The position numbers and the translations under genes were made by a program. A stretch of DNA of 22,995 nt from a virus: positions 1 through 22,995 of IMG/VR virus record IMGVR_UViG_3300035698_009306; one strand, written 5' to 3'. The notes under the pieces were generated by a model. The model was not told where the DNA came from, did not search any database, and worked only from the letters and a program-made list of their open reading frames with translations. Numbering within the stretch: position 1 is the first letter of the stretch; every line of letters begins with the position of its first letter. Shown here one piece after another: positions 6,972-22,085 of this stretch.

Positions 6972-6973
6972 AA

Positions 6974-7750: not shown

Positions 7751-7781
7751 AAAATAGTCTACTGTAATGGTTTAAGTATAA

Positions 7782-7808: not shown

Positions 7809-7907
7809 ATCTTTCCCTCTATTATATATAACAAATAAAATGACTAAAAATCAAGTAATATTATTATTTATATTAAAATAACTACATATTACTAATATAC
7901 TATACCT

Positions 7908-7962: not shown

Positions 7963-7991
7963 TAATAAGTTTAAAGTATTTAAGATTAATA

Positions 7992-8013
7992 ACTGTTAAC
8001 TGGCGTTAACAGT
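7992..8013. promoter_or_regulatory. perfect inverted repeat, operator candidate
   Basis: ACTGTTAAC, a 4-base TGGC spacer, then GTTAACAGT: a perfect 9-bp dyad with a symmetry typical of repressor operators. No T-run follows, so a terminator is unlikely. It lies about 240 bases upstream of the late operon start. Confidence 0.45.
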
Positions 8014-8303
8014 AAGGCTCGTTCCAAAAACCACTCGCCTTCCTTTCCTTTCTTCCTCCTTTTTTCTTATCAAAAAAAGCCAGCCATACTTATTGCCAAA
8101 ATTATGTAGCCAACAGGAAACAGTTACAGTTAATATGTCAGCCGATTTGGGGGTCAATATGTCTTCGCTGATGCGATTAGCCATTTACTGTTGTAAACTG
8201 TCTATTGGCAGTTATTTATGTTTATTCAGGCTTATTTTATATTATTATATTGTTAAAATACTGTTAAATTGCTGTTTAAAGCAATCATCACATGGTCATT
8301 AAA

Positions 8304-8339
8304 CCCGGTTCCTACGGGCTCAGGCGTTGCCTAAGCAAC
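8304..8339 (+). other. tandem short hairpins in GC-richer non-coding segment
   Basis: CCCG (8304-8307) can pair with CGGG (8315-8318), and GTTGC (8326-8330) with GCAAC (8335-8339). The surrounding 8300-8440 stretch is richer in GC than its flanks and has no open frame. It may be a structured RNA or a replication element; I cannot tell which strand would be transcribed. Confidence 0.3.
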
Positions 8340-8667
8340 TTTCTCGATGCTAGTGTCACCTTGTATAGGGTCCAGTGTTTTAAATCGCTTTTAGGCCGCT
8401 GAGGACGGGTAAACAGCCCTTTTTTAGCTGGCTGGCTGATTTCAGGGTATGTCAGGCTGATATTCTTAATGATACCTGTGAGGTATCCTATTGTTGTTCA
8501 TCCGTAAAATACCTGTAGTCGTATATATAATAGGGCCCGATAGTATTCTGCGAAAAAAGACCCCATCCGTCACCACTATTGGTATAAGTCCTTTATAGGT
8601 AGTAAAATGGCTCTAATAGTCTATACAGACAGTAAAAAAATAAAGCGTCTTTTCAAGATAATATGAG

Positions 8668-8716
8668 TGTCTCATTTTGGTTACACTATTTCTTTACCTG
8701 TAACATTCGTGTTACA
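8668..8716. promoter_or_regulatory. operator-like dyads, TGTAAC-N6-GTTACA type
   Basis: TGTAAC-ATTCGT-GTTACA at 8699-8716 is a perfect 6+6 dyad, extendable to 7+7 (TGTAACA-TTCG-TGTTACA). A degenerate copy, TGTCTC-ATTTTG-GTTACA, lies 31 bases upstream at 8668-8685. The same consensus forms the array at 11607-11726, so one phage or host DNA-binding protein may act at both regions. Confidence 0.5.
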
Positions 8717-8816
8717 CCTGCCTTATCTCTGCCCTATGTCTATTAAAAACATCAGTCTATAATTATAAACAAAGTTATTGACAATGCTGTAGCAAAATAA
8801 CACAGTTTATTTCCAC

Positions 8817-8836
8817 TTATCTACAGGTTATCAACA
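8817..8836 (+). promoter_or_regulatory. tandem DnaA-box-like sites
   Basis: TTATCTACA (8817-8825) and TTATCAACA (8828-8836) each differ from the DnaA box TTATCCACA by one base and are 2 bases apart. A third, CTATCCACA, lies at 8960-8968 across the promoter start region. This is compatible with a replication origin or DnaA-controlled transcription. Confidence 0.4.
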
Positions 8837-8890
8837 GGGTAAAAGTGTGTCAAAGTGATACAAAAATAGCAGTAAATAACAGCATAATAC

Positions 8891-8911
8891 GGTCGATATA
8901 CAGTATCGGCC
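8891..8911. promoter_or_regulatory. imperfect palindrome upstream of promoter
   Basis: GGTCGATA-TACAG-TATCGGCC is a dyad with 7 of 8 matching arm positions. It ends 21 bases before the -35 element of the right-arm promoter, a suitable position for an activator or repressor. Confidence 0.35.
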
Positions 8912-8932
8912 TATAATACTTTCATTGATGCG

Positions 8933-8961
8933 TTGACATTGTGAGAGAATCGTGGTATTCT
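8933..8961 (+). promoter_or_regulatory. sigma-70 promoter P1 of the right arm
   Basis: TTGACA at 8933-8938, a 17-base spacer, then TATTCT at 8956-8961 preceded by TGG (extended -10). Transcription would start near 8968 and give a leader of about 30 bases before the first gene at 8999. Confidence 0.75.
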
Positions 8962-8998
8962 ATCCACATAGTTAAACATCATAACAGCGGGAGAAATA

Positions 8999-9259
8999 AT
9001 GTTAAACACTAACACAATTACTAACACAGTAAACGAAAGGAACACACATGATAACTTTGTCAATTTTAGCATTGGTAATTCTTTATGCGTATGTAAAAGC
9101 GGAAGTGTTATGAGAAAAATTTTCAGTGGTGACAGTTACACAGCAAAACAATGTAAATTAATTCGATGGTATGTAATAACAAAAAAGCACACAGTCACGG
9201 AGTATTTAAAAAAGTATGCAGTATTATTTAACAATCATCATGCAAAAAAAGGAGTATGA
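8999..9259 (+). CDS. small unknown protein, 86 aa (or 49 aa from an internal start)
   Basis: This is the first frame after promoter P1. The ATG at 8999 follows GGGAG at good spacing, but the first 37 residues are Asn/Thr-rich and of low complexity. An internal ATG at 9110 would give a more protein-like 49-residue basic product (MRKIFSGDSYTAKQCKLIRW...). That ATG overlaps the stop of a separate small frame (9048-9113) as ATGA, so coupled translation from there is possible. The stop lies just before the first amidoligase. I do not recognise it. Confidence 0.45.
   Translation: MLNTNTITNTVNERNTHDNFVNFSIGNSLCVCKSGSVMRKIFSGDSYTAKQCKLIRWYVITKKHTVTEYLKKYAVLFNNHHAKKGV
9048..9113 (+). CDS. possible hydrophobic microprotein, 21 aa
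   Basis: The ATG at 9048 follows CGAAAGGA at 7-base spacing, the same Shine-Dalgarno type used by most right-arm genes. The peptide MITLSILALVILYAYVKAEVL is mostly one membrane helix. Its stop overlaps an ATG at 9110 (ATGA). It lies inside the 8999-9259 frame, so only one of the two readings, or both, may be used. Confidence 0.35.
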   Translation: MITLSILALVILYAYVKAEVL

Positions 9260-9261
9260 TA

Positions 9262-10416
9262 ATGGAATTAAGTAAATGCAAACACTGTTCTGAATTATTG
9301 GAAGCTGATAAACTATTTGACTTTGAAGGTCAGGACTATTGTGAACTATGTCATCAACAGTTGTTTACATTATGTCATACGTGCGGAGAAGAAATAGAAA
9401 AAGCTAATTCACAAAGTTATAACTTCAGATTTTTTTGTGAAACATGCTTTGAAGAAAATCACAGAACTTGTGACCGCTGTGATGATATATTTCCACAACG
9501 TGATAGTTACTACGCTTATAATGGAGATTGTTTATGTGTGGACTGTTATGAAAATTACTTTTCATCATGTGACCGCTGTGGAGAAGTTTTTGAGCGAAAC
9601 GAAATGAATTGGAATGATAATGATGGATGCTATTATTGCGGATCTTGTAATTATGATGATGATGAAGAAATCTATCACGCGGAAATTAATTCGTATAGTT
9701 ACAAGCCGGTTGCTATTCTGCATAAAGTAGCAAAAGAAAAAACCGAAATGCATTTTGGCTTTGAGTATGAAATACAAGTTGAAAATGGAGATTGTATAGA
9801 TACACTAAAACAAAAAGACGAATTGTATTTTAAACACGATTGTTCCGTGGGTAAAGGATTTGAAATTGTTACGCATCCAATGACAAAAAAATACATAGAA
9901 GAAACGGGCATAATAAATTTTGTTATGGATACATTATGCGATTATAATGCACAGGCAGACTACAATACCGGAAATCACATACACTTTACACGCGGAATTT
10001 TAAACGAATGTCAGGAAAAGAAATTAGCGTATTTCGGTAGTAAATTTGGTTCACAGTTGATGGCAATTTCAAAACGTAACACATCACATTGTGATTACGC
10101 AAAAAGGTACGATTTTACTATGAAAAATTTTCTACAAAATACAATACATGAGACAATGGGGTATGACCGTAGTAATTTATTTAATTTTACAAACAGAGCC
10201 ACAATAGAATGCCGACTTTTTAACGGCACAGTTGATGCAACCTCGGCAATAGAAAATTTTGAAATACTTTGTGGGATAATTAATTACATACAGTCTACGC
10301 ATATTTATGATTTTTGCTGGAGTGGTTATGTAAAATACATGAAAAATAATTATGCTATTGGGTATAACTTCATAAATAAAGAAACGACGAAAAGAAAGGA
10401 ACTACAATGTGTATAA
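9262..10416 (+). CDS. amidoligase 1 (Amidoligase_2 family) with four zinc-binding modules, 384 aa
   Basis: Amidoligase_2 proteins have a glutamine-synthetase-like carboxylate-amine ligase fold and are predicted to form amide or peptide bonds using ATP. Catalytic motifs are GFEYE (residues 166-170), HDCSVGKGFEIVTHPMT (192-208), GNHIHF with the His-x-His pair (239 and 241), and ATIECRLFNGT. Residues 6-129 hold eight CxxC-type knuckles (CKHC, CELC, CHTC, CETC, CDRC, CVDC, CDRC, CGSC), enough for about four treble-clef or LIM-like zinc modules. Start choice: an ATG occurs at 9256, but AGGAG at 9250-9254 is correctly spaced only for the ATG at 9262. The last codons (Cys-Val-stop) overlap the GAT start by 10 bases. 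The family call is good; the substrate is unknown. Confidence 0.8.
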   Translation: MELSKCKHCSELLEADKLFDFEGQDYCELCHQQLFTLCHTCGEEIEKANSQSYNFRFFCETCFEENHRTCDRCDDIFPQRDSYYAYNGDCLCVDCYENYFSSCDRCGEVFERNEMNWNDNDGCYYCGSCNYDDDEEIYHAEINSYSYKPVAILHKVAKEKTEMHFGFEYEIQVENGDCIDTLKQKDELYFKHDCSVGKGFEIVTHPMTKKYIEETGIINFVMDTLCDYNAQADYNTGNHIHFTRGILNECQEKKLAYFGSKFGSQLMAISKRNTSHCDYAKRYDFTMKNFLQNTIHETMGYDRSNLFNFTNRATIECRLFNGTVDATSAIENFEILCGIINYIQSTHIYDFCWSGYVKYMKNNYAIGYNFINKETTKRKELQCV

Positions 10417-11195
10417 TCATAGTTAAAAAATCAGGAATAAAGTTACCAAGTAAAACAATGCTGAAAAGATGTGAAAAACAAAACAACGACGGCATGGGCA
10501 TTATGTGGGTGAGAGAAGGAGAAAAATTAACACACATTAAAAAAGATTTTCAAAATTTAAAACACATGATTAATTTTATCAATAAAAACATAATGCAATC
10601 GGATACATTATGCATACATTTCCGTTACGCAACTAGTGGGATAGTAAACAGAACACAGAGGCATCCGTTTGTTATTACTACCGACCCACAAAGTGTTTTA
10701 CGCATGAGAGGAGATTGTAAAAAAGCAGTAATGCATAATGGCGTATTAAGTGAATACGATTTTCAAAATCAAATGTCGGATACAATAAATTTTACGACAA
10801 CGGTCTTGGCTAATAAAATCGTTAAAAATAATTTACATGATCCAGTGATTCAGTATTTTATTAAAGAAGTGTTACAAGGTGACCGACTTGCAATTTCTAA
10901 CAACGGAAAATTAATTCTATTAGGTGAATGGGTCACACAAAAAACAACGGGACTAGTTTTCTCTAATGAAGGCTATAGACCCACGCCAAAATGTAATGAT
11001 AAATGGGTAACAATGGATGATGCATTACTTTTGGATAATTTAGAAAATGAAATTAAAGAGGATGACCAGCAGTTTTCAGAATGTGACTTATGCGGAAAGT
11101 GGAAACAAGTTACAACGTTGGAAGCCTATGAAGCCTCGCTTCATGTATGTAAGCAGTGTAAAAAAAGTTACCAAGATGGGACCTTAACAATGTAA
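10407..11195 (+). CDS. class II glutamine amidotransferase 1 with C-terminal zinc ribbon, 262 aa
   Basis: This is an N-terminal-nucleophile glutaminase domain that releases ammonia from glutamine for a partner synthetase. All family landmarks are visible: Cys2 (nucleophile after Met removal), NNDGMGI (26-32), HFRYATSG with Arg73, MHNG (His110-Asn111-Gly112) and SDT with Asp125. The spacing matches GPAT-type class II enzymes. The C-terminus, residues 226-262, is a small zinc ribbon (CDLC...CKQC). No synthetase domain is fused; the adjacent amidoligase is the obvious partner. GAAAGGAA lies upstream inside the ligase gene, and the start overlaps its stop by 10 bases. Confidence 0.85.
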   Translation: MCIIIVKKSGIKLPSKTMLKRCEKQNNDGMGIMWVREGEKLTHIKKDFQNLKHMINFINKNIMQSDTLCIHFRYATSGIVNRTQRHPFVITTDPQSVLRMRGDCKKAVMHNGVLSEYDFQNQMSDTINFTTTVLANKIVKNNLHDPVIQYFIKEVLQGDRLAISNNGKLILLGEWVTQKTTGLVFSNEGYRPTPKCNDKWVTMDDALLLDNLENEIKEDDQQFSECDLCGKWKQVTTLEAYEASLHVCKQCKKSYQDGTLTM

Positions 11196-11208
11196 CAAAA
11201 ATTTTATT

Positions 11209-11243
11209 GCGTAACACATGTAAATTTTTTATGTGTGTTACGC
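11209..11243 (+). terminator. hairpin after GAT 1, possible terminator
   Basis: GCGTAACACA (11209-11218) pairs perfectly with TGTGTTACGC (11234-11243), with a T-rich loop of 15 bases. It starts 14 bases after the GAT 1 stop and is followed by a T-rich stretch (TATTATTTATTTTTTAT). The long loop and interrupted T-run make it a weak intrinsic terminator or an mRNA-stabilising hairpin. Confidence 0.45.
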
Positions 11244-11480
11244 CGCTATTATTTATTTTTTATACTTATAAATTTTCACGGAGAAATTTTTTCTATTACA
11301 ATTTTTTTGATGTAATAATTTTTTACACTATACATTTATTTGAATAATTAAACGGTCAAAACGCCCGTATAACAATATAAAGTAAAATTACATAGTATTT
11401 ACTTACAATAAACAAAAAATAGCTTAGGAGAGCAATTTGAACACTTAAAATTGATTTTTGACAATGTGATACAAAGCCTT

Positions 11481-11532
11481 CAGAAACGGCAGAAGTGCCG
11501 GGAAATCCGTATTTCTGCCCGTAAAATGGGCA
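11481..11532 (+). ncRNA. structured RNA candidate
   Basis: CAGAAA (11481-11486) pairs with TTTCTG (11512-11517), enclosing CGGCA-GAAG-TGCCG (11487-11500), with an alternative pairing of ACGG to CCGT. A second hairpin, TGCCC-GTAAAAT-GGGCA, spans 11516-11532. The segment is GC-richer than its surroundings and has no open frame. No promoter is evident directly upstream. It might instead be a protein-binding or origin element. Confidence 0.3.
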
Positions 11533-11606
11533 TATTTGATGTATAGTCTATTTACTATTACATAACGGTAAGGAGTATTGGTAGAGGTATAGATAGGCGT
11601 CGATTT

Positions 11607-11726
11607 TTTGACAAAAAGTTATCAACAGGCGTCAAAAAGTTAACACCTGTAACAAAAATGCGACACCTGTAACAAAAATGTTACACTTTGTAACCTAAAT
11701 GCGACACCTGTAATAATTAGGTTACA
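11607..11726. repeat. iteron-like array, six 18-bp units at about 20.5-bp period
   Basis: Units start at 11607, 11628, 11648, 11668, 11689 and 11709 (steps of 21, 20, 20, 21 and 20). The four best are TGTAAC-AAAAAT-GCGACA, TGTAAC-AAAAAT-GTTACA, TGTAAC-CTAAAT-GCGACA and TGTAAT-AATTAG-GTTACA. The first two are degenerate but keep the central AAAAAG and a TTA(T)CA end. The two-helical-turn spacing puts every unit on the same face of the DNA, as for replication iterons or cooperative operators. Confidence 0.6.
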
Positions 11727-11867
11727 TTTACAAAGTATTTAAAAAAGTTAATAAAAGATTTTAGAAAGTTAGAGAGAGAAGGGCAATGATTCCCATATAG
11801 CTAACCTCCAAGGCTCAAGATGATTTTTTAGTGTAACAAATTTGAGACAGTTTTAAAAAAATAATTG

Positions 11868-11896
11868 TTGACACGTTAATAAAAACATGGTATAAT
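11868..11896 (+). promoter_or_regulatory. sigma-70 promoter P2
   Basis: A perfect TTGACA (11868-11873), a 17-base spacer ending in TGG, and a perfect TATAAT (11891-11896). Transcription would start near 11903, just before AGAAAGGA and the ATG at 11921. Confidence 0.85.
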
Positions 11897-11920
11897 TATA
11901 ACAGTGACAGAAAGGAACTT

Positions 11921-12121
11921 ATGAATGTAAAAGAATTAAAAGAAGAATTAAACAAGTATGATGATAATTTGGTAATCTCATTTGGTAATAGTCATTATTT
12001 CAGAAAATCAGAACATTATTTATGGGCTGATAAAATTGAATCAACAGGCACTACACTGAGTAGAGATTTAAAAAGAGAAGAATATGACCCACAGGCATTA
12101 TTTATTTGGTGTGATGAATAA
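11921..12121 (+). CDS. small unknown phage protein, 66 aa
   Basis: The ATG follows AGAAAGGA at good spacing and lies about 18 bases after the predicted P2 start site. The N-terminus MNVKELKEELNKYDDNLVIS resembles small phage proteins that begin with an 'xVKELxExLxxxxDDxxV' helix-strand unit. A beta-rich C-terminal half follows, with conserved-looking Tyr, Trp and Cys residues (HYLWADKIE, FIWCDE). No membrane segment or catalytic motif is seen. It is followed 13 bases later by a lytic transglycosylase. Function unknown. Confidence 0.6.
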   Translation: MNVKELKEELNKYDDNLVISFGNSHYFRKSEHYLWADKIESTGTTLSRDLKREEYDPQALFIWCDE

Positions 12122-12134
12122 CAGAAAGGATACT

Positions 12135-12566
12135 ATGGAAGGAGATAGTATAACAAAAATTCTACTAGCTACTATAATATTTCTTTTAATATGTGCAACG
12201 GGAGAATGTGATGCTATTAGCCTACAGGCGCTTAGTAGTATTGAGAGTGATGGAGACACTAATGCCATATCATGTGCAGGAGCAAAGCACGGTAGAGGTA
12301 TATACCAAGTGTCAGAGATTGCGTTACTAGAGTATAATAATTATAATCATACACACATTAAGAAAGAGCAATTATTTGACCCGATTATCAATGAAATGAT
12401 TGCATTATGGTTTTTAGAAAAACGTATACCTCAGCTATTAAAACACTTTGGACATGAGGTGAATGTTGCTAATATAATACAAGTATATAATCTAGGTATA
12501 GGTTCATTTAATAAAGGCATACGCAATAAAAACTATGTGAAAAAATATAATGAAAGGAAAACATGA
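12135..12566 (+). CDS. small exported lytic transglycosylase-like protein (SLT fold), 143 aa
   Basis: The product has an N-terminal hydrophobic segment (ILLATIIFLLICATG, residues 9-23), serving as a signal peptide or membrane anchor, then a compact SLT-like domain. Landmarks are the likely catalytic Glu37 in LQALSSIESDGDTNA, the GRGIYQVSEIAL motif (family G.GlmQ), an LFDPIINEMIALWFLEKR segment (family 'DP..N...a..yL'), and VYNLGIGSFNKG (family 'aYNaG'). Such enzymes cleave peptidoglycan between MurNAc and GlcNAc. The ATG at 12135 follows AGAAAGGA at good spacing; an upstream in-frame ATG at 12084 lies inside the previous gene and is unlikely. Its early-arm position suggests local wall remodelling rather than bulk lysis. 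Confidence 0.7.
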   Translation: MEGDSITKILLATIIFLLICATGECDAISLQALSSIESDGDTNAISCAGAKHGRGIYQVSEIALLEYNNYNHTHIKKEQLFDPIINEMIALWFLEKRIPQLLKHFGHEVNVANIIQVYNLGIGSFNKGIRNKNYVKKYNERKT

Positions 12567-12788
12567 AAACAGAGTCACAAAAATTTACTGATGCAGTAAA
12601 ACACGTAAAAGATTACTTGGTATGCTCCACACGGTAGAGCATTAAAACATTTGATAAAGCGTGAAGTGGTGAAAGAAATTTTTATTGGCGAGTGCTTTAT
12701 TGGATATGAATATAAAGAACATTTAATTCTTAGAGAAAGAGGCACAGGTGATTGTGAAGAATATTATATATTAAAAGGAAAAGTATAA
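12563..12788 (+). pseudogene. frameshifted small gene of unknown function
   Basis: An ATG at 12563, overlapping the transglycosylase stop as ATGA and preceded by GAAAGGAA, opens MKTESQKFTDAVKHVKDY and would stop at 12635-12637. The +1 frame continues from about 12618 as WYAPHGRALKHLIKREVV and runs to a stop at 12786-12788. Read together, the two parts make one plausible protein of about 74 residues. A missing or extra base near 12617 explains it, as decay, a sequencing error or a programmed shift. No stand-alone start with a ribosome-binding site is seen for the second part. Confidence 0.5.
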
Positions 12789-12796
12789 AATAAATC

Positions 12797-12825
12797 TTGA
12801 CACGCTAACAGAAAGATGGTATAAT
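12797..12825 (+). promoter_or_regulatory. sigma-70 promoter P3
   Basis: TTGACA at 12797-12802, a 17-base spacer ending in TGG, TATAAT at 12820-12825. The ATG of the next gene lies only 6 bases after the -10 element, so P3 transcripts would be leaderless for that gene or would serve only the genes downstream. Confidence 0.8.
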
Positions 12826-12830
12826 AAAAT

Positions 12831-13157
12831 ATGAATAAAATGCGTAAGACAGTGTATAGGATAGAAAATCATGAGGGTAGATTATATCGGACCCATCATT
12901 TTCCTTATACAAAAATAGCAGACAAAATAAATGCTAAACATCCGTTACCTAAAGATGATATAAAGATAGGTAGAGACCCAAAACCTAATGAAAAGTGTTG
13001 CTTCCTATCACTTGAGCAGTTACATAACTGGTTCACTGATAAAGATTTGGAGATATTAGAAAGAAAAGGCTTTACAATCAAAAAAATCAATGTTATAATA
13101 ACAGCAGAAGGTGAGACACAGGGATTATATCATTGTAACAATTATGTAACACTATAA
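12831..13157 (+). CDS. small unknown phage protein, 108 aa
   Basis: A soluble protein without membrane segments. It has a pattern seen in small phage proteins of unknown function: an N-terminal VYRIENHEGRLYR strand pair, then CCFLSLEQLHNWFTDKDLEILERKGF, then an INVIITAEGETQGLYH strand pair. The SLEQL..WF....L..L...GF core is the most family-like piece. The start is uncertain: the ATG at 12831 lies at or before the predicted P3 start point and has no close Shine-Dalgarno; Met4 (12840) is an alternative. It is followed after 18 bases by amidoligase 2. Function unknown. Confidence 0.55.
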   Translation: MNKMRKTVYRIENHEGRLYRTHHFPYTKIADKINAKHPLPKDDIKIGRDPKPNEKCCFLSLEQLHNWFTDKDLEILERKGFTIKKINVIITAEGETQGLYHCNNYVTL

Positions 13158-13175
13158 ACAGAGAGGAATAGTAAA

Positions 13176-14600
13176 TTGAGTGAATTTAAAATAGATGATG
13201 TTGTTGAAGTTATTAATCCTGGTAACACATACTCAACACATAATGAAATGCAGTTTTATACTTCATGGCAATATTCTTATGTCCCATCACGCGGAGATAT
13301 AGGACAAGTAATGGCAGTTGGAATTATAGACACTGTATTACCTTCAGTGGTTTTAATGATTAATGATAAAGCATTATTAATTGGAGAACGAGGTATTAAA
13401 CAGAAAGGAAATGCATTGAGAGGAACAATAATATCAGATGGCACAGCAATTACAAGTGTAAACATAAATGATATAGTAATATCAAAAAAATGTCCTCATT
13501 GTGGTGTTGATTATCCAGAAAGTCAAGTGAGAAAGGTTGATGATGAAATGTATTGTTTTAAGTGTTACAATATATTATTTAAGTCTTGTTCTAGTTGCGG
13601 AGTGGCACATCTAATAGAGGATATGCTTGTTCCTAGTGGGAGAATGTTTCCTTCTTATTATTGTAAAAAGTGTTTTAAGCAAGTATTTTTACAATGCTCT
13701 GATTGTGGTGGTGATTATGGAGCTGGTGATATGAGATTAATAGACGGACAGAATATATGTCCTCGATGTTGGGAGGCCAATCACAGACTAATAAAATCTT
13801 GTGGCTATGTGTCTGTATTTAAATTTCATAAGATGGACTGGGAATATGAACCTCTCTATATGGGAATAGAGTTGGAGATTCAAGCACGTTGTATGGTGAA
13901 TGAAGAACAATTATCAGTGTATATACAAGAATATTTATTGGAAAATAAACTTGACAAGTTGTTCTATTTCAAGTATGATGATAGTATAAGCAACGGTTTT
14001 GAGATTGTATCAATGCCAGTTACATATGCTTATATACATAAGAATGTCAATATCAAGAGTTTACTAAAACATATAAACAGAAAAGCAACCTCATATAAAG
14101 GTGGAAGATGTGGTATACATGTTCACATGAGCAGAAAGTATTTTTGTAATGAAGATATAAGAAAAATGCAGTTGTTCTTTAATTATAACAGTAGTTGGTT
14201 ATTAAAGTTTTCTCAGAGAACACAAGAGCAGTTAAGTCAGTGGGCAAGAATTACAGAGTTTAATAAAGAAGAATATAAAGCATATAGATGTCACAATGAA
14301 TTTAGGAATCCTTCAGATAGATATATAGCTTTAAGTTTTGCTGGTGATAAAGACACTATTGAAATGAGATTATTTAGAGGCACATTAAACTATGATAGAT
14401 TTATTGCTACATTACAATTTGTCAATGCTATTGCTAGTTTTGTAAAGCATGTGAGTTTTGCCACACTAACGTATAGAAAAAGTATTGACAGATTTATAAA
14501 CTTTTGTAAATCTAAAAATCAATATAGAAAATTTGTTGACTACGTGATTGCTAAAAATTTAATAACAACGGAACAAGAAAGGGAAACAGTATGTGTTTAA
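13176..14600 (+). CDS. amidoligase 2 with SH3-like N-domain and three zinc modules, 474 aa
   Basis: The start is a TTG at 13176, supported by GAGAGGA 8 bases upstream. Residues 1-100 form a beta-rich SH3/KOW-like domain (FKIDDVVEVINPG...SRGDIGQVMAVGI...LLIGERGIK) not present in the other copies. Residues 106-198 hold six CxxC knuckles (CPHC, CFKC, CSSC, CKKC, CSDC, CPRC), about three zinc modules. The catalytic domain has MGIELEIQ (229-236), YDDSISNGFEIVSMPVT (267-283), GRCGIHVHMSRKYF with the His-x-His pair at 315 and 317, and TIEMRLFRGTLNYDRF. The final Cys-Val-stop overlaps the next start by 10 bases. Predicted ATP-dependent amide or peptide ligase; substrate unknown. Confidence 0.82.
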   Translation: MSEFKIDDVVEVINPGNTYSTHNEMQFYTSWQYSYVPSRGDIGQVMAVGIIDTVLPSVVLMINDKALLIGERGIKQKGNALRGTIISDGTAITSVNINDIVISKKCPHCGVDYPESQVRKVDDEMYCFKCYNILFKSCSSCGVAHLIEDMLVPSGRMFPSYYCKKCFKQVFLQCSDCGGDYGAGDMRLIDGQNICPRCWEANHRLIKSCGYVSVFKFHKMDWEYEPLYMGIELEIQARCMVNEEQLSVYIQEYLLENKLDKLFYFKYDDSISNGFEIVSMPVTYAYIHKNVNIKSLLKHINRKATSYKGGRCGIHVHMSRKYFCNEDIRKMQLFFNYNSSWLLKFSQRTQEQLSQWARITEFNKEEYKAYRCHNEFRNPSDRYIALSFAGDKDTIEMRLFRGTLNYDRFIATLQFVNAIASFVKHVSFATLTYRKSIDRFINFCKSKNQYRKFVDYVIAKNLITTEQERETVCV

Positions 14601-15523
14601 TCATTGTTAAAAATGTTGGTAGCAAGATGCCTACCATCAATACAATATCAGATGCGTGGAGTAGTAATCCACACGGTGCAGGCATTTGTTATAAACATAA
14701 AGATAGTGATATGGTTCACATTATGAAAGGCTTTATGAATCTAATAGACTTAAAAGAATATCTTGAGAACAAAGGTCTTAACGAGGACTTTGATGTGATT
14801 ATTCACTTTAGACTAGCTACAAGCGGTCTACGTGATGGCGGTAATACTCACCCGTTTCCTGTTGTTAATAACGGAATACTATTGAGAGAGACACAGTTAT
14901 CAACAGAAATGGCAGTTGCTCATAATGGTATATTATCTAGTTACAGTAGAGGTGGAAAATTCTCCGATACACAGTGGTTCATTTTAGATTTTCTTTCAAG
15001 AAAAAATATCAGAAAAAATCTAGAGAGTGAAAAAGTAATTGATAAAATCAAAAAACAGATTAGAGGAGATAAACTTGCGATACTTGATAAAACAGGCATC
15101 ACAAGAATAGGAAAATATGAGACAATAGACGGCCTATATTATTCTAACACTTCTCATTTGTGGGGCAGATACTCATATGGTTATGACCGTGATTGGGGCA
15201 CTTGCAGTAAAAATAATAGAGCAAAACGGCATACAGTTGATACAGCAGGAAAACCGTATGATAAAACAATACAAAAAGATGTTTACAATATAGGATATTG
15301 TGACCACTGTGAGTTTTACAATACTTTATATCTGTGTGAAATTGATGGCATCTTTCATAGAGTATGTTCTGAGTGTTATGGTCAGCTTAAAAAAGGTAAG
15401 TCAGATTTTAATAGTTGTGCCCAATGTGGGAAATTTATAAACAAAGATAGTTTATTAAAGTTTGAAGATGATGTGTCCACATATTACTTATGTGATACAT
15501 GTAATACAATATTATCAATGTAA
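14591..15523 (+). CDS. class II glutamine amidotransferase 2 with two C-terminal zinc ribbons, 310 aa
   Basis: The N-terminus MCLIIVKN gives the Cys2 nucleophile. Other landmarks are NPHGAGI (in place of the DG.G of copy 1), HFRLATSGLRDGGNTHPF with the substrate-binding Arg, VAHNG, and SDTQWF with the conserved Asp. GDKLAIL and a RIGKYE strand follow. Residues 237-310 contain two zinc-ribbon-like units (CDHC...CSEC and CAQC...CDTC), twice as many as copy 1. AAGAAAGGG lies upstream within the amidoligase gene and the start overlaps its stop (ATGTGTTTAA). It is the predicted ammonia-supplying partner of amidoligase 2. Confidence 0.85.
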   Translation: MCLIIVKNVGSKMPTINTISDAWSSNPHGAGICYKHKDSDMVHIMKGFMNLIDLKEYLENKGLNEDFDVIIHFRLATSGLRDGGNTHPFPVVNNGILLRETQLSTEMAVAHNGILSSYSRGGKFSDTQWFILDFLSRKNIRKNLESEKVIDKIKKQIRGDKLAILDKTGITRIGKYETIDGLYYSNTSHLWGRYSYGYDRDWGTCSKNNRAKRHTVDTAGKPYDKTIQKDVYNIGYCDHCEFYNTLYLCEIDGIFHRVCSECYGQLKKGKSDFNSCAQCGKFINKDSLLKFEDDVSTYYLCDTCNTILSM

Positions 15524-15536
15524 TGGAAAGGATATA

Positions 15537-16739
15537 ATGAAAGAGTTACAGATTAAAGACGGTAAAAAAATATTAAGTTGGTGTAGTGATATAGAAGAAG
15601 GTGCTTTAAAACAGTTAGAAAACTTATCACTTCTCCCTTTTGCTTTTGGTCATATAGCAGTTATGCCAGACTGCCATCAGGGGTATGGTATGCCTATTGG
15701 TGGAGTGTTAGCTACTAAAGGAGTAGTTATACCTAACGCAGTTGGAGTGGATATAGGTTGTGGTATGTGTGCGGTGAAAACTAATATCAAAGCAGGGCAG
15801 TTGGACAAAGAAACTTTTAATAAGATTTTAGGTGGTAGTAAAGAATATAAAGGTGGAGTAAGGTCTTGTGTTCCTGTTGGTTTTAATCATCAGAGTAAGA
15901 TACAGGATTCAAATTTAATGCCTGTTTTACCTGATTCTTGTTGGAACGATAATGCATATATTTTTCAGAAAGAGTATAGCTCTGCTTTAAAACAGTTAGG
16001 AACTTTAGGTGGAGGTAATCATTTTATCGAGATACAGAAAGATGAAGATGATATAGTGTGGATTATGATACATTCTGGTAGCAGAAACTTAGGATATAAA
16101 GTTGCTAAACATTATAATGACATTGCTATTAGTCTGAATGAAAAATGGTTTTCACCTGTTCCTAAAAGCTGGGAGTTAGCTTATTTACCTATTGGAACAC
16201 CTGAGGCAAAATCTTATTTAGTAGAAATGAATTATTGTGTTGAGTTTGCTTTGGCTAACAGAAAACTAATGATGTGTAAAGTTTTAGATTGTATCAAAAA
16301 TGTTACAGGTGATTTTGAACATGACTATATGATTAATATAGCACATAATTATGCTAGAATGGAAAATCATCTAGGTCATAACGTAATGGTGCATAGAAAA
16401 GGAGCCACCTCTGCTAAAGAAGGAGAGTTAGGTATCATTCCTGGCTCACAAGGAACTTGCTCTTATATAGTGAAAGGTAAAGGTAATGTTTCTTCTTTTA
16501 TGTCATGTTCTCATGGTGCAGGTAGAAAAATGAGTAGAACAAAAGCACAGAACAGTTTAGATTTGGAAACTGAAAAAAAGAGGTTAGATGAACAGGGTAT
16601 TATTCACGGTATCAGAAACAAAAAAGACCTTGATGAAGCCTCTGGTGCGTATAAAGATATAGACAGTGTTATGAAAGAACAGGGAGACCTAGTAGAGATA
16701 GTCGCTACTTTGAAACCTATGTGTGTTATTAAAGGATAA
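15537..16739 (+). CDS. rtcB: RtcB RNA-splicing ligase, 400 aa
   Basis: RtcB joins 2',3'-cyclic phosphate or 3'-phosphate ends to 5'-OH RNA ends using GTP and Mn2+. The whole family signature is intact: PDCHQGYGMPIGG (44-56), VDIGCG with Asp72 and metal ligand Cys75, GGGNHF (158-163) with His162, IHSGSRNLG with His179, NIAHNYA with His270, and SCSHGAGR with His326, the residue guanylylated during catalysis. Length (400) is close to E. coli RtcB, and the motif spacing parallels it. The ATG at 15537 follows GGAAAGGA; an upstream in-frame ATG lies inside GAT 2 and is unlikely. It sits 13 bases after GAT 2. Phage RtcB may repair tRNAs or other RNAs cut by host nucleases. Confidence 0.96.
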   Translation: MKELQIKDGKKILSWCSDIEEGALKQLENLSLLPFAFGHIAVMPDCHQGYGMPIGGVLATKGVVIPNAVGVDIGCGMCAVKTNIKAGQLDKETFNKILGGSKEYKGGVRSCVPVGFNHQSKIQDSNLMPVLPDSCWNDNAYIFQKEYSSALKQLGTLGGGNHFIEIQKDEDDIVWIMIHSGSRNLGYKVAKHYNDIAISLNEKWFSPVPKSWELAYLPIGTPEAKSYLVEMNYCVEFALANRKLMMCKVLDCIKNVTGDFEHDYMINIAHNYARMENHLGHNVMVHRKGATSAKEGELGIIPGSQGTCSYIVKGKGNVSSFMSCSHGAGRKMSRTKAQNSLDLETEKKRLDEQGIIHGIRNKKDLDEASGAYKDIDSVMKEQGDLVEIVATLKPMCVIKG

Positions 16740-16759
16740 TAACAGAAAGGATATAAGAT

Positions 16760-16927
16760 ATGTGTAGTGATAATTGTGGAGTTGATTGTAAGTGTAACAA
16801 AAATGAGACATGGTTGGCACAATGTGTAGAATGTGATACGTTGTTTAATGTGCATGTTGAAAACGGTAATAAAACATTTTCAGATGATGCATGTAAATGT
16901 GATAAAAAAGTGTTGTATAAACTATAA
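16760..16927 (+). CDS. cysteine-rich small protein, 55 aa
   Basis: The ATG at 16760 follows AGAAAGGA with 8-base spacing. The protein has eight cysteines in 55 residues (Cys2, Cys6, Cys10, Cys12, a CVEC pair, and a CKC pair near the end), consistent with one or two zinc sites like those in the neighbouring enzymes. The CVEC...LFNVHVENGNKTF part resembles half of a zinc ribbon. No known family is recognised. It lies between RtcB and another small zinc-binding protein, all with the same ribosome-binding sequence. Confidence 0.6.
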   Translation: MCSDNCGVDCKCNKNETWLAQCVECDTLFNVHVENGNKTFSDDACKCDKKVLYKL

Positions 16928-16942
16928 ACAGAAAGGAAATAA

Positions 16943-17293
16943 ATGGGAGTATTTAGAACGTGTGATGTATGTGGTATCCCTCTTAAAGAGTTTGTTTCAA
17001 ATGATATTAAGAGAACAAAGAGAGTAAAGATGTTCTTTAAAGCGATAGGTGCCATTGATATTAATGGTCCTATGAGCGGAGTAGGTGAGAAAGGACTTGG
17101 AGATAAAAGTAATGTAGAGCCTGAACTAGATGGCTTAGAACAGTTTGAACGATGGATTACCAAGAATTTTAATCCTGAAGTTATAATGTGTCCAACATGT
17201 AAAAAGCAATACATTAAAGTATGTTTTCAGTGGGTTCTAGAAAGAAAGAGAGAAGTTGCGGAACTTGATATTGAAAAAATATTTGCAAAATAA
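16943..17293 (+). CDS. split zinc-ribbon small protein, 116 aa
   Basis: The ATG at 16943 follows AGAAAGGA at 7-base spacing. CDVCG (residues 7-11) and CPTCKKQY (about residues 83-90) can form one zinc site, with a 70-residue insertion between them that includes a basic KRTKRVKMFFKAIG stretch and a Gly-rich loop. A helical tail (FQWVLERKREVAELDIEKIF) follows. Such CxxC...CxxC proteins occur often as small phage accessory proteins. It ends just before promoter P4. Function unknown. Confidence 0.6.
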   Translation: MGVFRTCDVCGIPLKEFVSNDIKRTKRVKMFFKAIGAIDINGPMSGVGEKGLGDKSNVEPELDGLEQFERWITKNFNPEVIMCPTCKKQYIKVCFQWVLERKREVAELDIEKIFAK

Positions 17294-17296
17294 CAC

Positions 17297-17325
17297 TTGA
17301 CAAACTTTAATAATCATGGTATAAT
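17297..17325 (+). promoter_or_regulatory. sigma-70 promoter P4
   Basis: TTGACA at 17297-17302, a 17-base spacer ending in TGG, TATAAT at 17320-17325. It opens the long block carrying amidoligase/GAT pairs 3 and 4. The predicted start site (about 17332) leaves almost no leader before the ATG at 17340. Confidence 0.85.
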
Positions 17326-17339
17326 AATAGAAAGGTCAA

Positions 17340-17471
17340 ATGAGTAACATATTCGATAAAGTAGAAGAAGAAGAAAATCTAAGCTACACAAATATTATCG
17401 ACTTGATAAATTTTGATATGGACACTAACAAAAAAATTAATCAATTAGAAAAATGTAAGGAGAATGTATGA
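17340..17471 (+). CDS. small acidic protein, 43 aa
   Basis: The ATG at 17340 follows AGAAAGG at 5-base spacing, directly after promoter P4. The 43-residue product (MSNIFDKVEEEENLSYTNII...) is acidic in its first half and basic at the end, with no membrane segment. Its TGA overlaps the ATG of the next gene (ATGA), and AAGGAG for the next gene lies within its last codons. That arrangement argues that it is translated. Function unknown. Confidence 0.5.
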   Translation: MSNIFDKVEEEENLSYTNIIDLINFDMDTNKKINQLEKCKENV

Positions 17472-17950
17472 GCAAAATAGTTTTTGAGATTGAGAACAAA
17501 GGTCTCTTTATCGGTAAGATAAACGAAAAGATAAAAATGAATAAAAGAATCTATAAAATCGTTAAAAAACTAAACGACAATTTTATTAAAGAGTCTTTTA
17601 CTTCTACTTCTGCTGTTCTTATGCTTAAAGAACAAAAGATACCATTTGGTCATTTTTGTCAAGATGATTACTGTGTTCCTATTATAGGTCAAGACGAATA
17701 TTTAAATGTATATTTTGTCCGTAGAGCAACAGAATTAACAAAAACAAAGCTAGTATTAGAACTATATGAAGATAACAAAAGAGCCTTACAAGAATTTAAC
17801 GAGAGAGCAATTAAAGATGCTGAAAAGTCATTGAAAATGATAGAGAATGTTTACTACTTATATGATTCTTTGAAAGCCAAAGCTACTAGCTTAAGAGATA
17901 TTGCCATCAGTAAGTGTCGTTGTCAGGTGAATTTGAAGGTGGTAGTGTGA
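17468..17950 (+). CDS. unknown protein, 160 aa
   Basis: A soluble, mixed alpha/beta protein. It starts with AAGGAG 5 bases upstream and overlaps the previous stop as ATGA. The first 50 residues are Lys-rich (GKINEKIKMNKRIYKIVKKL). The middle has a strand-rich part (IPFGHFCQDDYCVPIIGQDEYLNVYF), and residues 90-145 form long charged helices, probably a coiled coil (LELYEDNKRALQEFNERAI). I recognise no family. Its stop overlaps the next start by one base. Confidence 0.55.
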   Translation: MSKIVFEIENKGLFIGKINEKIKMNKRIYKIVKKLNDNFIKESFTSTSAVLMLKEQKIPFGHFCQDDYCVPIIGQDEYLNVYFVRRATELTKTKLVLELYEDNKRALQEFNERAIKDAEKSLKMIENVYYLYDSLKAKATSLRDIAISKCRCQVNLKVVV

Positions 17951-18267
17951 TGGATAATATGATTATAAAGTATACCCGATGGAAACCAAGAGCAATTAAA
18001 AGACTTGAAAGAATAATTAATATATTAGATATTGCTATGGATAAATTTTCAGATGATGCATATGTTTTATATGATAAATCTGAATATATTAATCTATTAC
18101 TTGATGGACTAAAATCAACGTGTTATTTTAAAGTTACATCAAGTAACTATCTTGAAATAATACAGAGAAAGTTTGTAGTGCAAAACGAAATTAAAGAAAT
18201 ATTAACTTATTTAACAAATAAAATAAAGGAGAAAACCAATGGTGCACGGGTGCAGTTACAAGCCTAA
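17950..18267 (+). CDS. unknown helical protein, 105 aa
   Basis: The ATG at 17950 shares its A with the TGA of the preceding gene (TGATG), with GAAGGTGG about 7 bases upstream. A longer in-frame start at 17914 would overlap that gene by 37 bases and lacks a good site. The product is basic and largely helical (RAIKRLERIINILDIAMDKF, KNEIKEILTYL-like end) with no cysteine cluster. Its end overlaps amidoligase 3 by 29 bases, and AAAGGAG for that gene lies inside it. Function unknown. Confidence 0.5.
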   Translation: MDNMIIKYTRWKPRAIKRLERIINILDIAMDKFSDDAYVLYDKSEYINLLLDGLKSTCYFKVTSSNYLEIIQRKFVVQNEIKEILTYLTNKIKEKTNGARVQLQA

Positions 18268-18976
18268 ATTTAAAATGAACAAAATCAAAACCGAAAAAAA
18301 GCCTTTGTTCCTAGGTTTTGAACTTGAGTGTGAAATTGATTGGGATGATGCTTATCATTTTACTAATGATTTACTCTATTGCAAAGAAGATGGTAGCATA
18401 GATGATGGTTTTGAAATCGTCTCACATCCTATGACGTTACGATATATGAAAAAAGCCAAGGTCTTAGAGTATATCACAGATAAACTTAAAAGCTGTGGAG
18501 CATATGAAGATGGTGGTTTTCATGTTCATGTAAATAAAAATTTCTTTACATCTACACAGTTGAGAAAGTTGGCGTTGTTTTCTACTGTAACAAAAAAGTT
18601 ACTATTAACTCTATCAAGACGAAGTGATTATAATATGGATTCATGGGCAAGAATACCAGAATATTCAAGAGAATGGTATAAAAGCACTAGAAGTTTATCC
18701 CATGATAGACAGTGTGCTATAAATTTCACTAATAAAGATACTGTGGAGTTTAGATTCTTTTCATCAACATTGTCATTAAATGAGTTAAAAGCAAGTATTT
18801 TATGTGTAGAAAGCATATGTCAATATGTTAAAAAAGTTAGAGTAAATAATATATCAAGCAAAAATTATATAAAATTTCTCTTGACAACACCAAAAAAATA
18901 TGATATACTGGTTAAGTATATAAAATCTAGAGTATCAACATTAAACACAAAGAAGGAAGTGCTTGAATGTGTATAA
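18239..18976 (+). CDS. amidoligase 3, minimal form without zinc modules, 245 aa
   Basis: This is the catalytic domain alone. Motifs are GFELECE (26-32), KEDGSIDDGFEIVSHPMT (49-66), GGFHVHVNKNFF with the His-x-His pair at 95 and 97, SWARI, and TVEFRFFSSTLSLNEL. It is 130-230 residues shorter than the other copies because it lacks the N-terminal zinc-binding region, which makes it the best guide to the minimal enzyme. AAAGGAG lies 7 bases upstream. It ends Glu-Cys-Val-stop, overlapping GAT 3 by 10 bases (ATGTGTATAA). Predicted ATP-dependent amide or peptide ligase, paired with GAT 3. Confidence 0.82.
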   Translation: MVHGCSYKPKFKMNKIKTEKKPLFLGFELECEIDWDDAYHFTNDLLYCKEDGSIDDGFEIVSHPMTLRYMKKAKVLEYITDKLKSCGAYEDGGFHVHVNKNFFTSTQLRKLALFSTVTKKLLLTLSRRSDYNMDSWARIPEYSREWYKSTRSLSHDRQCAINFTNKDTVEFRFFSSTLSLNELKASILCVESICQYVKKVRVNNISSKNYIKFLLTTPKKYDILVKYIKSRVSTLNTKKEVLECV

Positions 18977-19770
18977 TTATAGTTAAGCCAAAGAATATTG
19001 CGTTACCGCCTTTGCAGTATTTTTTGAATTGTGAAAGTAAAAACGGAGACGGAGTTGGTGTAGCAATACACAAAAAAGGAGTATACTCTTTTATTAAAAA
19101 AGACTTTGAATCGGCACAAGAATGTTACAGCTATTTAATGCTCAATACAGAGCCTAAGGATACTGTTATTGTTCACTTTAGATGGGCAACAAGTGGGATA
19201 GTTACAGAAGAATTTAGACATCCATATCCTATCACTAATAGAGTATATAGATTAAAACATACAGAAATGATAACATCAAGAGTAGTAGCACATAATGGTG
19301 TTTTCTCTGAATATGAACCTAAAAATCTTAATACTAATGATACTATGGTGTTCATCAAAAAGATGTTGTCTGTTCCTGAAATTAAGAACAATCTTCAAAA
19401 TGAGGTTCTTCAAAATTTAGTAAGGTCTCATATATCAGGGAGCAAGTTGGCTATTATTGATAAAGGTGAATTAATTATGTTAGGATATTTCACAGAAGAT
19501 AACGGATGTTATTATTCTAATTCTGATTATAAAGAATCATATCACAATATGCCTACTTTGTGGAAATCAGAAGATTTTAAGTCACAACCACATGGTGGAA
19601 CAATGATATATTGTTGTGACCACTGCGGAGGTGTAAAGAAGGTTCACCCAGTAATGGCTGAGCAAGAAATGTATAATCTGTGTAAAAATTGCAGAAGAAA
19701 AATTAAAAAAGGTAAATTAACTTACGAAACAATCAAAGCATTGGCTAGTGCTTTTGCTATAACAGACTAG
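18967..19770 (+). CDS. class II glutamine amidotransferase 3 with C-terminal zinc ribbon, 267 aa
   Basis: It begins MCIIIVKPKNIALP with the Cys2 nucleophile. Landmarks are KNGDGVGV, HFRWATSGIVTEEFRHPY, VAHNGVFSEY, and a TNDTMVF segment carrying the conserved Asp. GSKLAIIDKGELIMLGYF follows. Residues 217-267 contain one zinc ribbon (CDHC...CKNC) and a short helical tail. AAGAAGGAA lies upstream inside amidoligase 3. It is closest in layout to GAT 1 (one ribbon), whereas GAT 2 and GAT 4 carry two. It is followed after 11 bases by amidoligase 4. Confidence 0.85.
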   Translation: MCIIIVKPKNIALPPLQYFLNCESKNGDGVGVAIHKKGVYSFIKKDFESAQECYSYLMLNTEPKDTVIVHFRWATSGIVTEEFRHPYPITNRVYRLKHTEMITSRVVAHNGVFSEYEPKNLNTNDTMVFIKKMLSVPEIKNNLQNEVLQNLVRSHISGSKLAIIDKGELIMLGYFTEDNGCYYSNSDYKESYHNMPTLWKSEDFKSQPHGGTMIYCCDHCGGVKKVHPVMAEQEMYNLCKNCRRKIKKGKLTYETIKALASAFAITD

Positions 19771-19781
19771 AAAGGATAAAA

Positions 19782-20909
19782 ATGCCAGCTAACTGTTCTC
19801 AGTGTGGAGATTCACTTCCTATCGGTTCTGTATGGAGAGTATCATCTAGAAATGAAAGTATGTGTGAGGACTGTTACCACGATAATGCCATAAGCTGTGG
19901 GTGTGGTTATAGCGGTTATCGAGAGGACTTGAATTATGATAACAGAACTGATAGATATTATTGTCGTAGTTGTTGGATAAGACATCAACAACAACAGTTG
20001 GTGTTTCCATATGATTATGTGCCTAGATTTTATAAGCGAAAATTAAAGTTTGATTCTAAAGATTATATTGGATTTGAACTTGAAATAGAGTGTAAGAATT
20101 ATGCGGAGTGTGCCACAGCACTTAAAGGTTATTTTAAAAAGCATAAACTTGAAAAAATACTATATCTTAAACATGACGGTAGTGTAGAAAATGGCTTTGA
20201 AATAGTATCTCAGCCTATGACTTATAAATATTTAAGAACTAAGATTAACTTTAAAGATATGTTAGCTTTTGTTGCAAAATATGCGACTTCTTTTAATAGT
20301 GGAAGATGTGGATTACATTTTCACATAAACAGGGAATATTTTGAACCTAAAGAGTGGAGCAAAGTAAGATTATTCTTTCATCGGAACAAGCAGGAACTGT
20401 TTGACTTCTCACAGAGAAATTATAGTCATATCCAAAGATGGGCTATTTTTGAAAACTTTACTTTGTTTGATTATTTCATGAACGAGAAAGATGTAAAAGA
20501 ACATAAACAGTATAAGTCTCATAATAAATATGTAGCTGTGAGATTTCCAAATTCAAAAGCTACAATAGAGTTTAGAATATTCAGAGGAACACTTGACTAC
20601 ACAGATTTTATGGGAGCATTACAGTTTAGCCAAGCACTTACAAGCTATGTTAAACAAGCATCTGTGGCATCTATAAATAACATTAATTCGTGGGATAATT
20701 TTATGAAATGGATTAAGAAAGAAAAATGCTACAAACTGTTACAAAAAAGTTACAGTAACATTATGAAAAAAGTTGAGAAGAAGGTTCTCAGAGTAAAAGA
20801 GGTACCAATATCTGATGGAATTCAGCATAACAATGATAGTGGTTTTAGTTCCAGACCTTTTGGTAGAAGAAGTGTTGTAACAAATGGATATACCAGATTT
20901 AACTTTTGA
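19782..20909 (+). CDS. amidoligase 4 with two zinc modules, 375 aa, possibly extended by a +1 shift
   Basis: Residues 5-64 hold four cysteine knuckles (CSQC, CEDC, CGCG, CRSC), about two zinc modules. The catalytic domain has YIGFELEIEC (95-104), KHDGSVENGFEIVSQPMT (130-147), GRCGLHFHINREYF (His179 and His181) and TIEFRIFRGTLDYTDF. It most resembles copy 2. AGAAAGGA lies upstream. Unlike the other copies it does not end Cys-Val in an overlap with the GAT start; its stop is about 200 bases early. The next frame is open from there to the GAT 4 start, so a +1 shift at TTT-TGA would extend it by about 66 residues. Confidence 0.82.
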   Translation: MPANCSQCGDSLPIGSVWRVSSRNESMCEDCYHDNAISCGCGYSGYREDLNYDNRTDRYYCRSCWIRHQQQQLVFPYDYVPRFYKRKLKFDSKDYIGFELEIECKNYAECATALKGYFKKHKLEKILYLKHDGSVENGFEIVSQPMTYKYLRTKINFKDMLAFVAKYATSFNSGRCGLHFHINREYFEPKEWSKVRLFFHRNKQELFDFSQRNYSHIQRWAIFENFTLFDYFMNEKDVKEHKQYKSHNKYVAVRFPNSKATIEFRIFRGTLDYTDFMGALQFSQALTSYVKQASVASINNINSWDNFMKWIKKEKCYKLLQKSYSNIMKKVEKKVLRVKEVPISDGIQHNNDSGFSSRPFGRRSVVTNGYTRFNF

Positions 20910-21108
20910 TGTTGGAATAACACCAGTTTTATCTCCAGCATCAACAGAGATAGACCCACCAGTGACAGCAATAGAACCTTCTGTTATGGATGCTCCAGAA
21001 CCAGCAGAAAGAGTAGTAGAAAGAAACACATATGATTGGAGTGATGTTATCAACAGCTCCAATCAATATTACAATATTAATGGATGGACAACAGAAAGGA
21101 CAAGTTAA
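20884..21108 (+). CDS. acidic, proline-rich ORF between amidoligase 4 and GAT 4, 74 aa
   Basis: This open frame starts at an ATG inside the end of amidoligase 4 (26-base overlap) and stops in a TAATG overlap with GAT 4. The product is acidic, Pro/Thr/Ser/Val-rich in its first half (TPVLSPASTEIDPPVTAIEP) and probably disordered, ending Asn/Tyr-rich. The start lacks a good Shine-Dalgarno. It is either a separate small protein or the C-terminal tail of amidoligase 4, reached by a +1 frameshift. The second reading would restore the stop-start overlap seen in the other pairs. Confidence 0.4.
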   Translation: MDIPDLTFDVGITPVLSPASTEIDPPVTAIEPSVMDAPEPAERVVERNTYDWSDVINSSNQYYNINGWTTERTS

Positions 21109-22085
21109 TGTGTATAATAATAGCTAAGCCACCAGGTGTGGCATTACCAACATTAGATATATTAAACAAATGCTTTTCTAGCCATCCTCACGGGATTGGT
21201 ATAGCATTTAGACATAGAGGTAAAGGGTGTGTTAATATTAAAAAAGGCTTTGATACTCCAAAAGATTTGATGGATTATCTTGATAAACATAATGTGTCTA
21301 AAGATTGTTGTGCAATTATTCACTTTAGATATGCAACAGCAGGAGAACAGTCTAAGCATAACTGCCATCCTTTTCCTGTAACAGATGATAAGATGCTTAT
21401 GAGAAGTCTTGATTTAACCACTGATATAGCAGTTGCTCATAATGGGACTATAACTGAATTTGGTTCTCATGCAAAGTTTTCTGATACTCAGTTGTTTATT
21501 AAGAATATTTTATCAGATGATTATATCAAGGATAATATTCACAGTAAAACAGTAAGAAAACTTATAGAAGATTATATATCACCAAGTAAGTTAGCCATAT
21601 TAAAGAGTAATGCTTTCTTTACAATAGGAGAGTTTATATTACACAACGGTATATACTATTCTAATTCTTCTTTTAAAGAAAAAGTTTATAGACCAAGCTA
21701 TGTAAATACTTGTGGATATAGAACCGAAAGCTCCACTGTTGAAGATTATTACAGAGGACATATTGATTGCACAAACTATTATGGCCATATGGGACCATAC
21801 GCTGTTCAGCCTGCAACAACAGACCATTACTGTGATGTGTGTCATTTTAGAACATATAGCACTACTTTAACATTTGGCGCAGTAAAACGGAAGATGTGTT
21901 CAGATTGTTATTCAGATTTTACACGAGGTATTTTAAAAGGGAAATTAATAAGTCAATGTTTTGAATGTAGAAGTTTATTTCCTAACACTGATTTAATGAT
22001 AAAAAAGAATTGGGATTCAGCGACTAAGGTTTTTGGATATTATATTTGTAGAGAATGTAACCACAGAGAGCAGGTAACAACATGA
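21108..22085 (+). CDS. class II glutamine amidotransferase 4 with two C-terminal zinc ribbons, 325 aa
   Basis: The ATG at 21108 follows AGAAAGGA at 7-base spacing and gives MCIIIAKPPGVALP with the Cys2 nucleophile; an in-frame ATG 24 bases upstream would bury the cysteine and is unlikely. Landmarks are HPHGIGI, HFRYATAGEQSKHNCHPF (Ala-Gly rather than Ser-Gly), VAHNGTITEF and SDTQLF. Residues 242-325 contain two zinc ribbons (CDVC...CSDC and CFEC...CREC). A His- and Tyr-rich linker (YGHMGPYAVQP) precedes them. It is most like GAT 2. The stop overlaps the next gene's ATG. Confidence 0.85.
   Translation: MCIIIAKPPGVALPTLDILNKCFSSHPHGIGIAFRHRGKGCVNIKKGFDTPKDLMDYLDKHNVSKDCCAIIHFRYATAGEQSKHNCHPFPVTDDKMLMRSLDLTTDIAVAHNGTITEFGSHAKFSDTQLFIKNILSDDYIKDNIHSKTVRKLIEDYISPSKLAILKSNAFFTIGEFILHNGIYYSNSSFKEKVYRPSYVNTCGYRTESSTVEDYYRGHIDCTNYYGHMGPYAVQPATTDHYCDVCHFRTYSTTLTFGAVKRKMCSDCYSDFTRGILKGKLISQCFECRSLFPNTDLMIKKNWDSATKVFGYYICRECNHREQVTT

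Follow-up and report, generated by a model that had tools for sequence, protein, structure and literature searches.

Four diverged pairs of Amidoligase_2 and class II glutamine amidotransferase genes in one arm of a phage sequence

Four diverged and apparently intact gene pairs, each predicted to encode an Amidoligase_2 ligase and a class II glutamine amidotransferase (GAT), were found side by side in one arm of a phage sequence in IMG/VR (record IMGVR_UViG_3300035698_009306). The whole record, which is of class linear and probably a fragment, was analysed and is referred to here as the window (22,995 bases). The ligase-GAT unit is common and has been published in phages, and what stands out is the presence of four diverged, apparently intact pairs side by side, a number not reached in any of the related viruses examined. 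We put at about even the chance that the pairs represent four glutamine-dependent, carboxylate-amidating ligase-GAT enzymes that are made early from near-perfect sigma-70 promoters. This reading is based on the genes, their motifs, the predicted folds of one ligase and one GAT, the pairing and the co-inheritance of the partners; from the chemistry of the families we further infer glutaminase activity, ligase activity and ammonia transfer and, weakly, a target and a purpose for the amidation.

The window consists of a minus-strand arm (1 to ~7750) with structural-type genes and a plus-strand arm, starting at ~9000, with the ligase/GAT pairs, a lytic transglycosylase, RtcB and small proteins (Table 1), and the junction between the arms coincides with a change of sign in the GC skew. 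When the window was compared with 50,697 phage records by Megablast, no matches were returned. Searches of IMG/VR with the TerL-like and portal-like proteins yielded no relatives that would point to near kin or a host. PADLOC matched nothing relevant in the window, in which no Rfam families and no tRNAs were found.

Table 1. Features of the window, in order of position
Feature	Position	Strand	Remarks
Tail-fibre-like protein and gp80-like fibre protein	within 1 to ~7750	-	
Terminase-like ATPase	within 1 to ~7750	-	assigned by motif only
Portal-like protein	2920-4680	-	C-terminal ChaB domain, PF06150, 48.8 bits
Band_7/SPFH protein	6360-6971	-	in structural arm; PF01145, 54.5 bits
Promoter-like site before pair 1	8933..8961	+	2 mismatches to extended -10 sigma-70
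Ligase 1, Amidoligase_2	9256..10416	+	most diverged of the four; tandem LIM-like zinc modules at the N-terminus
GAT 1, class II glutamine amidotransferase	10407..11195	+	C-terminal CxxC zinc ribbon; Cys2, Arg, HNG, Asp intact
Strong terminator-like stem (16 bp) downstream of GAT 1	11209..11243	+	
Promoter match	11868..11896	+	perfect, extended sigma-70
Small SLT transglycosylase	12084-12566	+	hydrophobic segment at the N-terminus; lies between pairs 1 and 2 in the putative early arm
Promoter match upstream of pair 2	12797..12825	+	perfect, extended sigma-70
Promoter match upstream of ligase 2	13071..13099	+	near-perfect
Ligase 2	13176..14600	+	PF12224 match and motifs; zinc modules, extra N-terminal domain of ~95 aa
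GAT 2	14591..15523	+	AF2 model, GlmS glutaminase-like
RtcB	15462..16739	+	PF01139, 379 bits
Promoter match upstream of pair 3/4 block	17297..17325	+	perfect, extended sigma-70
Ligase 3	18239..18976	+	245 aa; catalytic core only, without zinc modules
GAT 3	18967..19770	+	motifs intact
Ligase 4	19782..20909	+	PF12224 match and motifs
Pro/acid-rich ORF between ligase 4 and GAT 4	20884..21108	+	74 aa
GAT 4	21108..22085	+	GATase_4 above cut-off

All eight ligase and GAT open reading frames exist in the window. Ligase 1 starts at 9256, position 9262 in the earlier sequence-only reading being the second in-frame ATG, and ligase 2 was called from a TTG start, such that its true start is uncertain. That reading held that each ligase is directly followed by a GAT, and this order is present in all four pairs; in pairs 1, 2 and 3 the end of the ligase gene and the start of the GAT gene overlap by 10 nt, but in pair 4 the GAT begins 198 nt downstream of the ligase, with a 74-aa ORF in the gap. 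The 10-nt overlap, also present in 18 of 158 viral pairs among the relatives, fits translational coupling. Family matches were sought for the 74-aa ORF in pair 4 and none were found; it may be a spacer. The pairs are not strictly consecutive as had been described, because the SLT transglycosylase, RtcB and small ORFs intervene between pairs 1 and 2 and between pairs 2 and 3. Zinc modules are present on three of the four ligases, ligase 3 being the exception.

Ligases 1 to 4 matched PF12224 (Amidoligase_2) with scores of 27.1, 39.4, 34.7 and 38.5 bits, respectively, all above the Pfam cut-off of 22 bits, and no matches to this family were found in 14 control genomes. In an alignment of 52 sequences, ten ligase residues were invariant (GxExE, DxS, the E of GFEIV, one Pro, the first His of HxH, and ExR), and all ten are kept in all four window ligases, as are the near-invariant columns, in agreement with the motifs having been reported as intact. 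In order and kind, these residues presumably correspond to those with which glutamine synthetase (GS) binds metal and ATP. The GATs were examined in the same way using a 48-sequence alignment, and every window copy was found to retain the seven invariant residues (C2, R74, His87, H111-N112-G113 and D126), confirming that Cys2, Arg, HNG and Asp are intact in all four. GAT 4 scored 25.7 bits against the Pfam cut-off of 23 for GATase_4, and GATs 1-3, with weak Pfam scores, fell short of the cut-offs for GATase_4 and GATase_6. A profile of the wider GAT family identified GlmS (5e-11) and GPAT (2e-8) in the PDB, with the R-x-A-T-x-G...HP...HNG stretch of GlmS aligned to the GAT.

A GS-like fold of the ligases had been set beforehand as a test of the sequence-only reading, and such a fold was predicted for ligase 1, so this test does not refute it. 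The best fold matches of the AF2 model (pLDDT 91.8) were the YbdK family (Z 11.7-11.8) and GS (Z 11.5), and GmaS and glutamate-cysteine ligase were also matched, at Z ~11-12 over ~200 residues. The N-terminal zinc modules of ligase 1 matched LIM domains by fold (3.4e-4), and the profile of the ligase family matched LIM domains by sequence (7e-5), pointing to a likeness between the ligase zinc domains and the protein-binding modules of LIM type. The model of GAT 2 (pLDDT 85) resembled the GlmS glutaminase (Z 14.7) and EgtC (Z 14.3), and an Ntn-hydrolase glutaminase fold of the GlmS type is supported by this model together with the GlmS and GPAT matches of the profile.

Ligase and GAT trees were compared for 91 paired proteins and were found to be correlated (Mantel rho 0.55, P 0.001; best of 999 shuffles 0.20). 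The co-evolution that had been anticipated is therefore borne out, though as a broad agreement to which shared phage descent may have contributed, and the pairs seem to have been inherited as units. In both trees, the shortest path between any two of the four window copies is that between 2 and 4; copies 1 and 3 form sister branches in the ligase tree and, in the GAT tree, both belong to one starred set of seven. Both trees therefore point to a {2,4}/{1,3} grouping, with modest group support, and GAT trees constrained to groups of this type were not rejected. Recent tandem amplification of a single pair was also considered as an origin and set aside. A single clade of the four window GATs was rejected (AU P 0.027), whereas a single clade of the four ligases was not (P 0.105), and from these tests the pairs appear to be old rather than to stem from a single recent amplification. 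Zinc motifs in ligase and GAT co-occur (Fisher P 1.9e-8), but this association was not demonstrable after correction for descent, which left only 3-4 independent contrasts, and it was not used as evidence.

A scan of viral sequences identified 372 candidate stretches encoding a relative, and the best 80 loci of each of two scans, 160 in all, were retrieved. A GAT was located directly behind 158 of 178 viral ligase ORFs. About one in ten viral ligases has no GAT behind it, which counts against a two-subunit enzyme, and the lack of any ligase-GAT fusion protein in ~240 loci counts against a joint enzyme. Most viral loci carry a single pair, several carry two (L006, L073, L099, L135 and L147), and the next highest locus after the window (L112) has three ligases and two GATs. 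The four diverged pairs on one contig are thus the highest count among the 160 viral loci, the best 80 per scan, and a higher count is possible among the IMG/VR relatives beyond these. In scans of 74 whole contigs, many of them far longer than the window, the maximum was three ligase genes. In cellular genomes, ligase and GAT were found together in 76 of 80 loci (L166-L245), mainly in Ruminococcus and Oscillospiraceae. Integrases and recombinases are often located nearby, and a single genome can hold up to about eight ligase genes. The integrative elements of these bacteria share with the window the order of the pair and have N-terminal CxxC zinc motifs and many copies per genome; however, their copies are mostly at separate places or on separate contigs, whereas the four pairs of the window lie within 13 kb.

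The window contains seven matches to an extended -10 sigma-70 promoter with up to two mismatches, compared with 0.95 expected in shuffled sequences. Six of these are on the plus strand, three perfect and three near, and the seventh, a weaker one, is on the minus strand. As strong sigma-70 promoters are located on the arm opposite the structural genes, the proposed use of the pairs early in infection is plausible, and transcription of the pairs by the host RNA polymerase at that stage is a reasonable inference from the sequence. At least three transcription units with strong host-type promoters would then supply four parallel amidation activities early in infection. Each pair would form a two-subunit glutamine-dependent amidoligase, in which the GAT would hydrolyse glutamine via Cys2 and hand the ammonia to its partner, and the GS-like ligase would use ATP to activate a carboxylate, probably through an acyl phosphate, and would thereby yield a primary amide. 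The tandem LIM-like zinc modules on three of the ligases would probably dock a partner or the target. The likeliest target would be a carboxylate of a peptide or protein, such as a peptidoglycan stem peptide, an envelope protein, or a defence or host protein, and amidation might serve to block rivals or to take over the cell. A more elaborate version, in which four non-exchangeable enzymes act on four different protein or peptide targets, three of them steered by LIM-like adaptors, as parallel tools of post-translational amidation in host takeover or against rival phages and defences, is considered unlikely.

The chief rival to glutamine-dependent amidation is gamma-glutamyl chemistry, in which the ligase would join the side-chain carboxylate of glutamate to an amine and the GAT-like partner would remove the gamma-glutamyl group. 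Models for such a scheme are the ligases YbdK, glutamate-cysteine ligase, EgtA and PuuA, with removal by EgtC or PuuD. In ergothioneine synthesis, EgtA and EgtC combine a GS/GCL-like ligase with a class II GAT-like partner, as in the window; EgtC hydrolyses a gamma-glutamyl amide, and the two enzymes act at separate steps. The top fold matches of the ligase include YbdK, and EgtC and GlmS match the GAT fold equally closely, so that the fold comparison does not single out a glutaminase with ammonia transfer. In some related phages, moreover, the pair is surrounded by genes for GGACT, a C26 class I GAT, ATP-grasp and COOH-NH2_lig, a combination consistent with gamma-glutamyl compounds. However, the GAT profile finds GlmS and GPAT, with EgtC absent from its matches up to E 0.1, and no COOH-NH2_lig, ATP-grasp or GGCT/GGACT companion was recognised on the 23-kb fragment, although the contig is cut. 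As relatives L007 and L008 both have an ATP-grasp gene and L007 also has a COOH-NH2_lig gene, the window phage may carry genes of this type off the fragment. Gamma-glutamyl chemistry is considered rather less probable than amidation.

Protein tagging in the manner of PafA and Dop, where the ligase would attach a small protein or peptide to a target through an isopeptide bond and the GAT would be an editing deamidase or remover, appears improbable. The fold matches of ligase 1 include PafA and Dop (E 5e-4 to 9e-4), and the LIM-like zinc modules suggest protein partners, but GS, GmaS and YbdK are matched at least equally well, no tag protein was identified in the analysis, and the GAT sequence is closest to enzymes that use free glutamine. 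It is similarly doubtful that the four pairs are paralogs that share a single ordinary function without dividing it between them and were retained by chance or for dosage. Bacteria rich in mobile elements hold up to about eight copies per genome, and carriage of multiple copies may therefore not mean specialisation; on the other hand, the other window ligases are only 27-35% identical to ligase 4, the catalytic residues are all kept, and the GATs reject a single clade, as above. Modification of phage DNA or of tRNA or rRNA is very unlikely. Class II GATs occur in some phage base-modification pathways, and RtcB and small zinc-ribbon ORFs are located nearby, from which a nucleic-acid or ribosome-associated target had earlier been tentatively suggested. 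That suggestion is not upheld, as only one of the 160 viral loci besides the window (L008) has RtcB near a ligase-GAT pair, the ligase zinc domains look LIM-like, and no base-modification genes were recognised in the window. RtcB was on the same count rejected as a conserved partner of the pairs.

The Mur ligase and GAT families of MurT-GatD are unrelated to those of the window, and the window pairs are not members of them. The logic of that system, the amidation of a peptidoglycan carboxylate by a ligase with a GAT subunit in Staphylococcus aureus (PMC3267633), is alike. Closer relatives are found in phages, where passages of published papers describe Amidoligase_2 and class II GAT genes in LUZ24-like phages (PMC3890496) and the same genes in OM43 phages (PMC10580990), Clostridium clostridioforme prophages (PMC11318856) and a Planctomycetes phage (PMC10945688). 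The phiEco32 pair has been proposed to act in cell-wall modification and superinfection exclusion, a prediction of Iyer et al. 2009 (via PMC10580990 and PMC11318856), and the relevant passages of the four papers either quote this prediction or suggest nitrogen metabolism. In the available parts of this literature, neither an activity of the isolated enzymes nor a proven function of the phage pair was found. The same two families are close together in LUZ24-like phages, phiEco32, Marvin and OM43 phages as they are in the window, though usually as one pair and not four, and the description of LUZ24-like UFV-P2 (PMC3890496) adds COOH-NH2_lig, ATP-grasp and GGCT-like genes that are not on the 23-kb fragment.

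Pairs of ligase and GAT occur widely in phages and mobile elements, and the presence of four diverged, apparently intact pairs suggests an activity that is worth repeated investment to the phage. The four pairs also offer a natural comparison for determinants of specificity. The cultured phage Marvin, grown on Mycobacterium smegmatis, carries one such pair (gp105/gp106), which makes the function testable in the laboratory. An isolated Clostridioides phage, AR1086-1 (L247), was found to encode an unannotated ligase of the Amidoligase_2 kind (3731-4843) with no GAT directly behind it.

In the related locus L008 (IMGVR_UViG_3300029959_000004), the RtcB gene (681-2924) encodes 748 aa with an apparent intein after VDIGC, whereas the RtcB of the window is uninterrupted. 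The region 5133-19043 of the same locus encodes at least 12 small proteins, several of them SH3/KOW-like, with a common C-terminal tail such as KIIKPYGIVNFCKxY or KIIREYGIVRFMR. A shared tail of this kind was seen only in L008 among ~240 loci, and it may act as a peptide tag or serve in recognition.
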